Of a stretch of 64,000 nt of DNA, positions 26,532 through 29,613 are shown one piece after another. The notes under the pieces are model-generated. The model was not told where the DNA came from. It saw nothing but the letters and a program-made list of their open reading frames with translations, and made no database searches. The position numbers were made by a program, and so were the translations under genes. The stretch's first letter is position 1, and each line of letters opens with the position of its first letter. The DNA is taken from assembly GCF_017798165.1 (NCBI RefSeq), contig NZ_CP059068.1:2356001-2420000 (forward strand), in the 5' to 3' direction. Source of the DNA: Rhodoferax sp. AJA081-3. GTDB lineage: Bacteria > Pseudomonadota > Gammaproteobacteria > Burkholderiales > Burkholderiaceae_C.

Positions 26532-27143
26532 ATGACTTGGCAAGAATTCACGGCACTACTGGTACTGGCCACGGCGATGAGCTTCTCGCCCGGCCCCAAC
26601 ACCACGCTGGCCACCGCACTGGCAGCCAATGGCGGCCTGCGCCGCGCCATGCCCTTTGTCTGCGCCGTGCCGCTGGGCTGGAGCGCGCTGCTAATGCTCT
26701 GCGCACTGGGTCTGGGGGCCCTGGTGCTGGCCGTGCCGCTCTTGAGCTGGGCGGTCAAGATTGTGGGCGTGGCCTACCTACTGTGGCTGGCCTTCAAACT
26801 GAGCCAGTCGCGCCAACTGGGCGAGGCCGACGCGGCGCGGCTGCAGGTGGGCTTCTGGCAAGGTGTGGCGCTGCAGTTTGTCAACATCAAGGCCTGGATG
26901 CTGGCCCTGGCCATTGTGGGTGGCTGGATCGCCGGGCGCGCTGACCCCGGCCAGCGCCTGGCGGTGGTGGTGCCGACCATGCTGGTCTTCGCCTTTGCCA
27001 GCAATTTGCTGTACGCCACGCTGGGCTCCCTGTTGCGGGACTGGCTGCGCGGCCCACTGGGCAGCGGCAAGCGCCTGCTGGCCTTCAACCGCGTGATGGC
27101 CGTTGTGCTGGTGGCCACCGCCCTGTGGATGCTGACCGTATGA
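26532..27143 (+). CDS. LysE/RhtB-family amino acid exporter
   Basis: This 203-residue membrane protein has about six helices and the LysE family motif near the N-terminus (AMSFSPGPNTTLATALAANGG). This family exports basic or neutral amino acids and related small molecules. It is divergent from the MocR-type regulator, a common pairing. Its stop overlaps the start of the next exporter gene (TATGA). The substrate cannot be named from sequence. Confidence 0.88.
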   Translation: MTWQEFTALLVLATAMSFSPGPNTTLATALAANGGLRRAMPFVCAVPLGWSALLMLCALGLGALVLAVPLLSWAVKIVGVAYLLWLAFKLSQSRQLGEADAARLQVGFWQGVALQFVNIKAWMLALAIVGGWIAGRADPGQRLAVVVPTMLVFAFASNLLYATLGSLLRDWLRGPLGSGKRLLAFNRVMAVVLVATALWMLTV

Positions 27144-28084
27144 CAACCACCACCATGGCTAACCAACGCCAGATCAACCAGGGCCTGTGGCTGGGCCTGC
27201 TGGGCATCGCCATCTTTTCGGTAACGCTGCCCATGACCCGTATGGCGGTGGGCACGGCCGAAGCCCCGCAGATGTCGGGCTTCTTTATTGCCATGGGCCG
27301 TGCGGTGGTGGCGGCCGCGCTGTCGGGTGCCTTTCTGCTGCTGACCCGCGCGCCCCTGCCGCGCCGCGAAGACTGGCTGCCGCTGGCAATCACGGCGGGT
27401 GGTGTGGTGTTTGGCTTCCCCCTTTTCACGTCCTTCGCCATGCGGTATGTAGAGGCCACACACGCCAGCGTCATCATTGGTGTGCTACCGCTGGCCACTG
27501 CCGCCGTGGGCGCACTGCTGCACCGCCAGCGCCCGTCCTTGGGCTTTTGGTTGTGCGCGGCGCTGGGCAGTGCGCTGGTGGCGGTGTTTGCGGTGATGCG
27601 CGGCAGTGCATCCGCAGCCGGTGCCGCGTCGGGTGGTATGTCCGTGCACGGCGCAGACCTGCTCTTGGTGGCCGCCGTGTTGTGCGCTGCAGTGGGTTAC
27701 GGCTACGGCGCACGCCTGTCGCACCACATGAAGGCCGAGCATGTGATTTGCTGGGCCCTGGTGATCGCCCTGCCCCTGACGCTGCCGCTGTCGGCCTACC
27801 ACTGGCCCACCGCGCCTTTGCACAGCAGCGCCTGGTGGGGCTTTGCCTATGTGGCCGTGTTTTCGATGTGGCTGGGCTTTTTCGCCTGGTACCGCGGGCT
27901 GGCTTTGGGTGGCACGGTGCGGGTCAGCCAGGTGCAGCTGGTGCAACCCTTTTTGAGCATGCTGGTAGCTGTACCGCTGCTGGGTGAGAAGCTGGATGCA
28001 GTGACGCTGGGCTTTGGCCTGGCCGTGATTGCCACTGTGTTTTTTGGCAAGAAGATGCCGGTTTCTCAGCGGGTGGCGGCGTGA
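27140..28084 (+). CDS. DMT-superfamily (EamA) exporter
   Basis: This 314-residue protein has ten predicted helices in two EamA halves (about 20-150 and 170-305), with the usual LGEKLDAVTLGFGLAVIATV end. It starts at the ATG at 27140, overlapping the upstream stop by four bases; an earlier in-frame codon at 27125 is less likely. EamA transporters move metabolites outward; the pairing with LysE and nearby aminotransferase and PhzF genes suggests amino-acid-like substrates. Confidence 0.87.
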   Translation: MTTTTMANQRQINQGLWLGLLGIAIFSVTLPMTRMAVGTAEAPQMSGFFIAMGRAVVAAALSGAFLLLTRAPLPRREDWLPLAITAGGVVFGFPLFTSFAMRYVEATHASVIIGVLPLATAAVGALLHRQRPSLGFWLCAALGSALVAVFAVMRGSASAAGAASGGMSVHGADLLLVAAVLCAAVGYGYGARLSHHMKAEHVICWALVIALPLTLPLSAYHWPTAPLHSSAWWGFAYVAVFSMWLGFFAWYRGLALGGTVRVSQVQLVQPFLSMLVAVPLLGEKLDAVTLGFGLAVIATVFFGKKMPVSQRVAA

Positions 28085-28120
28085 AGACCATGGAGACATG
28101 TACGCCGTTGTTACCTGCCT

Positions 28121-28194
28121 GCCGGGGTGGGCAAGGCCGAGGCCCTCATGGTGCGGGTACGCACAAATCGGGCCTCGGCCTTACCCACCCTGGC
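28121..28194 (+). repeat. Long hairpin A with shared 24-nt tip
   Basis: Arms of 25 nt (28121-28145 and 28170-28194) pair at 23 of 25 positions, plus one G-U. The tip is 24 nt (28146-28169) and contains GTGCG-GGTA-CGCAC. The tip is the exact reverse complement of the tip of hairpin B, while the stems are unrelated. It lies 36 bp after the DMT gene. No T-run follows. Confidence 0.85.
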
Positions 28195-28245
28195 GAGTAC
28201 AGTGGATGGGTTCTCCACCCATTGCGCGCCTCCATTCTTTCCAGC

Positions 28246-28319
28246 AAGGGATTGCGGTATGCCGGTGTCCGATTTGTGCGTACCCGCACCATGAGGACAC
28301 CGGCATACCGCAATCCCTT
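28246..28319 (+). repeat. Long hairpin B with the same tip inverted
   Basis: Arms of 25 nt (28246-28270 and 28295-28319) pair perfectly. The 24-nt tip (28271-28294) is the exact reverse complement of hairpin A's tip (28146-28169). The stem sequence differs from A. The spacer between the hairpins is 51 nt and itself has a small palindrome. Confidence 0.85.
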
Positions 28320-28407
28320 ACCCCCACAAAACTGAACGTGCAGTGCCCCCAATCACTGCACCAAAGCGCAAAATCTATCCCTTAACCAAAAAACGAGGCA
28401 ACCCGAG

Positions 28408-29613
28408 ATGAAACCCAACGACCTCCCAACCAACACCCCCTGGACCATGGCTCGCCGCGCCGCGCGCATGAACCCCTCCGTGATCCGCGAGATCCTCAAG
28501 GTCACCGAGAAGCCCGGCATCATCAGTTTTGCAGGCGGCCTGCCCTCCAGCAAGACATTTCCGGTCAGTGAGTTCACCGCAGCCTGCACCCAGGTGCTGA
28601 CCCACGACGCACAAGCCGCACTGCAATACGCCGCCAGCGAAGGTTTTGCCCCGCTGCGCGAAATGGTCGCCGCCCGCCTGCCGTGGAACGTGGACCCGGC
28701 ACAGATTTTGATCACCACTGGCTCACAACAAGGCCTGGATCTGGTCGCCAAAATCTTGATCGACGCCGACAGCCGCGTGCTGGTCGAAACGCCCACCTAC
28801 CTGGGCGCATTGCAGGCTTTCACACCCATGGAACCCGAAGTGGTCAGCGTGGCCAGTGACGACGAAGGTGTGGACGTTGCCGACCTGGCGAGCAAGGTTG
28901 GCACCGGCGCCAGCAAGGCCCGTTTCCTCTACGTGTTGCCCAATTTCCAGAACCCCACTGGCCGCACCATGAGCGAGGCGCGCCGCGCCGCGCTGGTGGC
29001 CAAGGCCGCCGAACTGGGCCTGCCACTGATTGAAGACAACCCCTACGGCGACCTGTGGTTTGACAAAGAGCCACCTGCTCCGCTGACATCACGCAACCCC
29101 GAAGGCTGCATCTACCTGGGCTCGTTCTCCAAGGTGCTGGCACCCGGTTTGCGCCTGGGCTTTATCGTGGCGCCAAAAGGCATCTACTCCAAGCTGTTGC
29201 AGGCCAAGCAGGCCGCCGACCTGCACAGCCCGGGCTTCAACCAGCGCATGATTGCCGAGGTGATGAAGGACGGTTTCCTGGACCGCCACATCCCCACCAT
29301 CCGCGCGCTGTACAAGTCGCAACGCGACGCAATGCTGGAAGCATTGAAGAAAGACATGCCCAGCGACGTGACCTGGAATTCACCCGACGGCGGCATGTTC
29401 CTGTGGGCACGTTTGCCCGAAGGCATGAGCGCCCAAGAGCTGCTGCCCAAGGCCGTGGACAAGGGTGTGGCCTTTGTACCCGGCGCAGCGTTCTACAACG
29501 ACCATGCAGACCCGCGCACCATGCGCCTGTCCTTCGTCACGCCCAATGTGGACGAAATCCGCACTGGCGTAGCCGCGCTGGCCGCCGCCATCCGCGAACA
29601 CCGGGCTGGTTGA
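28408..29613 (+). CDS. PLP-dependent aminotransferase (2-aminoadipate/valine-pyruvate type)
   Basis: This 401-residue fold-type I aminotransferase has ITTGSQQGLDLVAKIL, the PNFQNPTG motif, the DNPYGDL segment and the PLP lysine at K242 (GSFSKVLAPGLRLG). It resembles LysN-type multi-substrate aminotransferases without the GntR domain. It could make or degrade branched-chain, aromatic or aminoadipate amino acids. The GST gene follows four bp later, so the two are one unit. Confidence 0.88.
   Translation: MKPNDLPTNTPWTMARRAARMNPSVIREILKVTEKPGIISFAGGLPSSKTFPVSEFTAACTQVLTHDAQAALQYAASEGFAPLREMVAARLPWNVDPAQILITTGSQQGLDLVAKILIDADSRVLVETPTYLGALQAFTPMEPEVVSVASDDEGVDVADLASKVGTGASKARFLYVLPNFQNPTGRTMSEARRAALVAKAAELGLPLIEDNPYGDLWFDKEPPAPLTSRNPEGCIYLGSFSKVLAPGLRLGFIVAPKGIYSKLLQAKQAADLHSPGFNQRMIAEVMKDGFLDRHIPTIRALYKSQRDAMLEALKKDMPSDVTWNSPDGGMFLWARLPEGMSAQELLPKAVDKGVAFVPGAAFYNDHADPRTMRLSFVTPNVDEIRTGVAALAAAIREHRAG

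Follow-up and report, generated by a model that had tools for sequence, protein, structure and literature searches.

The intergenic gap analysed here lies in a window of 64,000 nt (the whole stretch of DNA that was analysed), between a gene for an EamA-type transporter (27125-28084, + strand) and a gene for a class I/II aminotransferase (28408-29613, + strand). Both genes are on the same strand, and the 323-nt gap between them holds two hairpins, A (28121-28194) and B (28246-28319), which are the two longest inverted repeats listed in the window with arms at most 80 nt apart. On the + strand, hairpin A consists of a left arm (28121-28145), a tip, TCATGGTGCGGGTACGCACAAATC (28146-28169), and a right arm (28170-28194); hairpin B consists of a left arm (28246-28270), a tip (28271-28294) and a right arm (28295-28319). 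A sequence-only reading of this DNA had given the coordinates, the 25-nt arms and the 24-nt tips exactly, and was also correct that the tips are reverse complements at 24 of 24 positions and that the tip itself folds (GTGCG-GGTA-CGCAC). The arm pairing that it described is perfect in B, but A carries two mispairs (G28124/T28191 and C28132/A28183). The stems, which it called unrelated, are not entirely so: 7 of the 10 bases beside the tip are the same in A and B, so that an inverted match of 44 nt (86%) spans the tip and the inner stem.

The RNA fold of the A and B region has an energy of -142.9 kcal/mol, compared with -88.3 kcal/mol (sd 5.3) for shuffled sequences (z = -10.3; none of 200 shuffles was as good). 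DNA folds of A and B on both strands (n = 4) gave z-values from -9.4 to -13.0. The RNA fold also contains a small hairpin in the middle of the pair (28200-28224, + strand), in a region that is not conserved in the orthologues from two relatives (G051 and G022). An Rfam scan of window positions 27000-29500 returned nothing above the gathering score, the best match being mir-326 with 25.9 bits against a required 66.

The reading had asked whether the tip recurs between other arms. A search of its own genome (one contig of 5.17 Mb) for the central 20 nt of the tip, allowing up to three mismatches, found A and B only, yet relatives carry copies with different arms. A tip search of 198 genomes gave matches in 42, and ten other genomes of the genus that bear the tip or close variants between other arms were followed (G006, G014, G022, G032, G045, G051, G061, G077, G097 and G102); the matches in the remaining genomes of those 42 mostly had three mismatches. 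In the followed genomes, 30 of 50 tip matches make pairs, a + tip and then a - tip, 120-300 nt apart (manual count). Across 20 stretches of these genomes, inverted arms of at least 25 nt flank 30 of 36 tips and vary from copy to copy; of the six tips without such arms, one is truncated where its contig ends, and these stretches also contain four looser matches that are armless. An exact tip in an actinobacterial contig (L036) was set aside: it is absent from the parsed hairpins, and by our own estimate about this number of matches is expected by chance.

The tip sits in a wider core, CC-TCAT-R-(apical stem)-AAATC-GG, in which TCATR and AAATC face each other as a conserved internal loop below the apical stem-loop. 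A covariance model, R1, was built from 31 hairpins and scores A at 87.3 bits and B at 91.1 bits. Hairpin A has the TCAT strand on +, so that its supposedly functional GATTT...ATGA strand is -, and B has the GATTT...ATGA strand on +. At E <= 1, R1 gave 36 matches in the own genome, representing 32 places (four matches repeat a place on its opposite strand), all of which have the core or a variant of it (e.g. TCAG...AAGTC). The orientations of these matches look mixed by eye, and a replication-strand bias in this genome was provisionally set aside. Beyond this genome, 82 of 103 genus genomes were matched at E <= 0.01, and 56 of 399 family genomes, in 33 of 141 sampled genera, at E <= 1e-6. Because R1 is mostly structure, its weaker matches may be other hairpins. 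The best locus in each of 29 family genomes (L153-L181) shows CC-TCAT-R...AAATC-GG or a near form. The family of hairpins is thus widespread in the sampled genomes, and is apparently undescribed. Arms are 25-29 long in 130 of 145 hairpins and cores are 20-28 nt, many hairpins being single rather than paired. The apical stem-loop is variable (TGCGGGTACGCA, TGGGGTACCA, TGCCAAATGCGCA and others).

To quantify the pairing of the arms we used an ungapped alignment, A1, of 31 of 35 hairpins; the first hairpin of L045, both of L052 and that of L050 were left out, and two of these four pair badly. The pair adjoining the apical loop is G-C in some hairpins and C-G in others, and is often unpaired in the A1 set. 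Of 27 arm pairs in A1, 25 are altered on both sides. Over all 32 pairs, 89.8% of cells are in standard pairs, against 62.5% after shuffling and at most 43.4% when the partner is slid by 1-3 columns; doubly changed cells number 229 against 73 in shuffled alignments, and the covariation score is 0.599 against 0.140. All 35 hairpins together gave similar values (87.5% paired, 61.7% shuffled, 43.5% slid; 250 doubly changed cells against 81; score 0.565 against 0.142). Pairing that is kept while the stem sequence changes around a constant tip, as was noticed at the window locus, therefore holds family-wide.

Comparison of orthologous loci gave the same picture. At the window locus, both hairpins are present in the G051 and G022 orthologues, their stems altered by compensatory changes, and the middle is unrelated; the tip changes in these orthologues are common to both hairpins, with the exception of one base in G022. 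The pair is absent from this locus in G003, which is closer to the window genome, and in G075 and G043; hairpin presence is generally patchy among related genomes. We considered whether the arms might be copied from the target, as the otherwise empty G003 site retains, with changes, some 12 nt from the outer end of B's right arm. The neighbouring gene of G003 is 90% identical to that of the window, compared with 87% and 86% for the carriers G051 and G022, so that loss is simpler than a duplication of flanks. At a second locus, L089, just GGCCTCC is shared, most of it constant, and copying from the target was rejected there too. Some sites where relatives hold the present element are occupied by a different short hairpin, G(G)GACAGA...TCTGTCCC: L222, L244 (the L099 locus in G092 and G022) and L248 (the L116 locus in G051).

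The two tips of a pair resemble each other more than chance allows. In 43 distinct pairs, some of them orthologous, the tips are identical in 19 and one base apart in 13, while random tips are identical in 4.8% of cases. All 43 pairs are inverted (41 are +-, two are -+ and represent one locus in two genomes, and none is direct). At the L116 locus of the own genome, the G003 pair has a different apical tip in both hairpins, and the arms of one hairpin are homologous; the tips of a pair thus change together. Polymerase template switching reportedly gives rise to hairpins, maintains them and homogenises inverted repeats, according to the available parts of PMC8794818 and PMC8604942. Were it to act within each palindrome, it could keep the arms complementary, and between the inverted tips it could keep the tips alike, with no selection on structure at all. 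This would account for double changes that lack intermediates and for the concerted tip replacement at L116. As a whole explanation it appears quite improbable, as it leaves unexplained the conserved internal loop, the arm lengths (25-29 in 130 of 145 hairpins), the dispersal of the hairpins and the tip-relative mismatch bias of 286 to 32, the last two of which are described below.

Dispersal of the whole pair was seen in G245, a genome of a different genus in the same family. R1 gave 61 matches there, 58 of which were used and make 28 pairs, all +- and with a spacing of 153-155; 29 full pairs were parsed, every one + and then - (L264, with an indel in the core, was left out of the 29-copy comparison). 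Nine copies (L262-L270) are 69-91% identical to one another over ~200-265 bp, and their flanks are otherwise unrelated. Because ~240 bp are shared in unrelated flanks, the pair is the mobile unit in this genome. Similarity ends ~6 nt beyond the outer arms; some of the 29 pairs share more of their flanks, and two adjoin duplicated genes. The copies have their arms in common and differ in them by compensatory changes. A copying mechanism that duplicates the flanks around a core, which the sequence-only reading had raised, does not fit these copies, in which the arms are part of what moves. Inspection of the aligned copies by eye showed no target-site duplication; the empty sites are too diverged to give exact element ends, and one holds another hairpin. 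In the middles of most of L262-L270 there is a second inverted repeat, GGTAGCGCNCTACC, on the inner side of each hairpin, giving two hairpins per half in most copies. In L284 and L292, both ends are of one arm type, as if half-elements had been swapped between copies. By analogy with this related family, the probable mobile pair in the window, with 27-nt arms and ~6 nt at each end, would span 28113-28327 (unstranded), and we infer that this copy itself once moved. In another genome, G072, the contig folds back through a tip (L220, on C249), producing a chimeric hairpin and an apparent inverted duplication. The locus stops 1960 nt in, so that the contig seems to end there, and the fold-back is possibly an assembly artefact at the contig end, or else a real inverted duplication.

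The mismatches that remain in the arms are strongly asymmetric. On the GATTT...ATGA strand of 195 distinct hairpins, at arm positions 4-22 and with hairpins of fewer than 17 of 25 Watson-Crick pairs excluded, we counted G.T 213 times against A.C 24 times, G.A 57 against C.T 7, and G.G 16 against C.C 1; i.e. 286 mismatches of the first types against 32 of their mirror types. The bias is also present with one hairpin per cluster (74 clusters at 70% arm identity; G.T:A.C 73:7, G.A:C.T 17:2, G.G:C.C 9:1; 44 clusters against 2) and without G245 (160 hairpins; 170:23, 38:6 and 15:1, respectively). The outermost arm pair in G245 departs from the trend. For hairpins on either strand of the locus the bias is equal (75:12 and 78:12), as counted under an arm-end rule, shared with the energy comparison, that spares G.T and from which the 195-hairpin and position-wise counts are free. 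Because the bias tracks the orientation of the tip and not the strand of the locus, the direction of replication or transcription is insufficient on its own to explain it. A strand-biased mutation process could mimic the pattern; as an alternative, greater mutation of C on the GATTT strand would have to be biased alike for transitions and for transversions. A control set of 38 terminator-like hairpins, too small for power, gave G.T 3 against A.C 5 and G.A 6 against C.T 4. The window pair has no bias of its own, its two mispairs being one of each kind. Taken together, strand-specific folding is well supported, and the bias adds to the case for selection on structure, which was one of the options put forward from the window alone and is the best reading of the family.

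The bias also bears on the possibility that the hairpins are double-stranded or cruciform sites for a chromosome protein, e.g. an architectural one, and were spread by the host rather than selfishly. A cruciform folds both strands and so predicts no mismatch bias, and presence is patchy among related genomes; we regard such a site as highly improbable, even though chromosomes carry many copies and mobile genomes few. As to the latter, one viral contig matches one core pattern and none the other, and blastn of the window pair gave no plasmid and no phage matches, a weak search for a family with variable arms.

Whether the folded strand is DNA or RNA can be judged in part from which mismatches are tolerated. 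In 60 sampled hairpins, the DNA folding energy cost is 3.25 kcal/mol for G.A, 3.11 for G.T and 4.63 for C.T; the corresponding RNA costs are 6.47 for G.A, 2.08 for G.U and 5.59 for C.U. Better tolerance of G.A than of C.T, as counted here, is therefore expected from DNA energies and not from RNA energies. Over positions 4-22 the ratios are ~9 for G.T and ~8 for G.A. Over positions 8-22, there are 194 G.T against 12 A.C and 25 G.A against 7 C.T (p 0.002); G.T is thus clearly better tolerated than G.A away from the core, which is less DNA-like. The GATTT strand is the more stable one in 64 of 74 clusters by DNA energies and in 65 of 74 by RNA energies, and this preference alone cannot separate the two. 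In window hairpins A and B the TCAT strand is slightly more stable, opposite to the general trend. We consider it moderately supported that the selected form is DNA rather than RNA.

The genomic setting offers some support to an RNA role, in which the hairpins would be two-way terminators or stabilisers of 3' ends, one hairpin per direction, and could still be mobile. Genes called by a hexamer script around 103 hairpin groups, with redundant loci, place 50 groups between codirectional genes, 21 between convergent and 9 between divergent genes, with 13 inside genes and 10 undecided; most groups therefore adjoin a gene 3' end, the 50:21:9 split being that of the 80 intergenic groups for which both neighbours were called. 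The role would also fit with the other hairpins that take the same sites in some relatives, and with G.T being the best tolerated mispair, most clearly away from the core. Several observations argue against it, and we consider it unlikely, if still to be taken seriously. There is no T-run, the window flanks included: on the GATTT strand, the first 10 nt of the 3' flank are 7.6-8.1% T and those of the 5' flank 14.9-15.7% T, which is not what is found at a rho-independent terminator. Thirteen groups are within predicted genes, and uvrA of the own genome alone has four hairpins. The excess of G.A over C.T even at positions 8-22 (25:7, p 0.002) is unpredicted by RNA energies, and a transcript of an inverted pair contains one hairpin in the functional sense, not both. 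That the arms might simply be one duplicated terminator, which the earlier reading had named as its refutation, likewise fails on the missing T-run, the lack of direct pairs (0 of 43) and the groups inside genes (13 of 103).

Some further features of the setting were observed. The four uvrA hairpins are translated in frame and three yield GSSYG(K/E)PKSSPG; two of the four are an inverted pair within the gene. A very long UvrA-type ORF (2150 aa) with several in-frame hairpins is present in the own genome (L115:2267-8719), with a putative one in G061 (L121:1364-7993). For ~40-60 nt or more beyond each hairpin, T is scarce and A and C are abundant in the 3' flank of the GATTT strand.

No gene-bearing version of the element was found among the pairs examined, the cores of the 43 pairs being at most 295 nt apart. 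At L282 and L283, two pairs are 2.4-3.0 kb apart, and the ORFs between them look fasciclin-like and transporter-like by eye. The own genome has one Y1_Tnp gene, which is RAYT-like: it scores 78.2 bits against NCBIfam REP_Tyr_transpos (cut-off 80) and matches TnpArep (4er8) with E 5e-4. Y1_Tnp genes occur in 96 of 103 genus genomes by a Pfam search that missed at least one genome (G047) found by protein search, and a homologue of the own RAYT occurs in 364 of 399 family genomes. Hairpins are found in 56 of those 399, including one genome (G281) without a homologue at the cut-off. As the RAYT is near-universal, its co-occurrence with the hairpins tells little. None of 31 Y1_Tnp loci (~3 kb each, ~1.5 kb either side, from part of the genus genomes) had a hairpin nearby. 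With no linkage and no discriminating co-occurrence, this RAYT was rejected as the cognate enzyme.

These results have to be set against REPINs, to which the layout is close. The statement that no named family has this layout stands in that none was found in open PubMed Central papers, where no paper was found for the core strings, and none of the Burkholderiales names looked up occurs in PMC12306157 or PMC3733652; it needs qualifying in view of the excerpted text of PMC3116915. There, REPINs are inverted REP doublets with compensatory changes that are thought to be moved as ssDNA by a RAYT, and in the accessible part of PMC8266576, TnpAREP reads one strand of a REP hairpin with a bulge and a GTAG tag. 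As far as those portions of the two papers go, the present elements are alike in being small, non-coding, multicopy repeats, mostly in inverted doublets with compensatory changes, in which one DNA strand of the hairpin counts and internal mismatches matter. They are unlike in that the hairpins are ~78 nt, with a conserved internal loop near the tip and hypervariable arms.

Could the pair nonetheless be a genuine REPIN that depends on the near-universal RAYT of these genomes for its movement? The inverted doublets, singlets, preference for one strand and lack of genes are all published features (PMC3116915 and PMC8266576, in the parts available), and the score of the own RAYT (78.2 bits, cut-off 80) and its match to 4er8 (E 5e-4) agree with this. 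We think it rather unlikely. GTAG is not clearly present at the foot (in 6-15 of 195 hairpins, compared with 4.5-11.5 after shuffling), and GTAG, GGAG and CGTC show no clear enrichment within 15 nt of either foot in the 195 hairpins; no hairpin lies near the 31 Y1_Tnp loci, RAYT presence does not predict hairpins, and the ~78-nt hairpins have unconserved arms. A REP is a 20-50-nt palindrome with a GTAG or CGTC tag at its foot, and the arms here, mostly 25-29 bp long and enclosing a 20-28-nt core, differ from this. Inverted doublets, as in a REPIN, were found in 43 of 43 pairs and G245 pairs are all +-, but a linked cognate RAYT was not found (0 hairpins at 31 Y1_Tnp loci). Because the GTAG and RAYT-linkage features fail, we do not class the element as a REP or REPIN.

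Other systems are more distant. The ends of IS200/IS605 elements are recognised as ssDNA hairpins, and insertion makes no target duplication. The present end hairpins are instead mutually inverted, the middles are too short for a transposase gene, and no tnpA was found between hairpin ends among the pairs examined. Classical bacterial MITEs are short, gene-free and dispersed with inverted ends, and the present element is alike in each respect; however, only its tips (and, in G245, the inner repeat) are identical in inverted orientation, and the arms differ between the ends. Of the features of a MITE derived from a DDE transposon, inverted tips are present and no duplication was seen by eye, in comparisons without a clean empty site. 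Rickettsia palindromic elements are palindromic inserts that are found also in frame inside genes, while the present element, compared with them by description only, is mainly intergenic and often paired. Mitochondrial double-hairpin and other hairpin elements are mobile hairpins (PMC2800124 and others) of other genomes, and were also compared by description only. Intrastrand triplex motifs, on the basis of part of PMC4666352, were weighed as a further reading.

On balance, and with modest confidence, we favour the interpretation that A and B are the inverted ends of one old, REPIN-like element that is non-coding and non-autonomous, is under selection as a single folded strand (likelier DNA) and is moved in trans. 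The element would be ~200-250 bp long, each end being a ~78-nt hairpin with ~27-bp arms, a conserved 5 x 5 internal loop and, at the apex, a short stem-loop. What matters would be the GATTT...(C/T)ATGA strand folded on itself, more likely as ssDNA, with an internal loop in which tandem G.A/A.G pairs could arise. As the two ends face in opposite directions, each strand has a single functional hairpin, the one lying 3' in the pair. The core would presumably be retained for recognition; the arms need only keep the GATTT strand folded and so would drift via compensatory changes. Lacking genes, the element may be copied in trans, most likely by an ssDNA enzyme of the HUH/Y1 type, as proposed for REPINs; this kind of enzyme, and the cause of the tip matching, are what we infer. 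Conversion between the inverted tips, or joint recognition, might account for the likeness of the tips within a pair.

A broader interpretation, which we offer tentatively as a possibility that may well not hold, is that these hairpins represent a new class of bacterial mobile DNA that is set by shape and not by sequence: an ssDNA hairpin read via its tandem-G.A loop, with arms free to evolve. If this were true, selection on DNA secondary structure would be visible in genomes as a mismatch signature of DNA type, and apical tips would be swapped in concert between the two ends. Because nothing but the fold and a short loop is conserved, repeat finders based on sequence would tend to miss such elements. 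If the favoured interpretation of a REPIN-like element is correct, a mobile element has gone unnoticed in many genomes of one bacterial family, and its arms are a record of selection for a single-strand fold. The mismatch test used here (G.T, G.A and G.G against their mirror types) may help to separate DNA-level from RNA-level hairpins elsewhere, and may reveal whether the near-universal single RAYT genes have a substrate.
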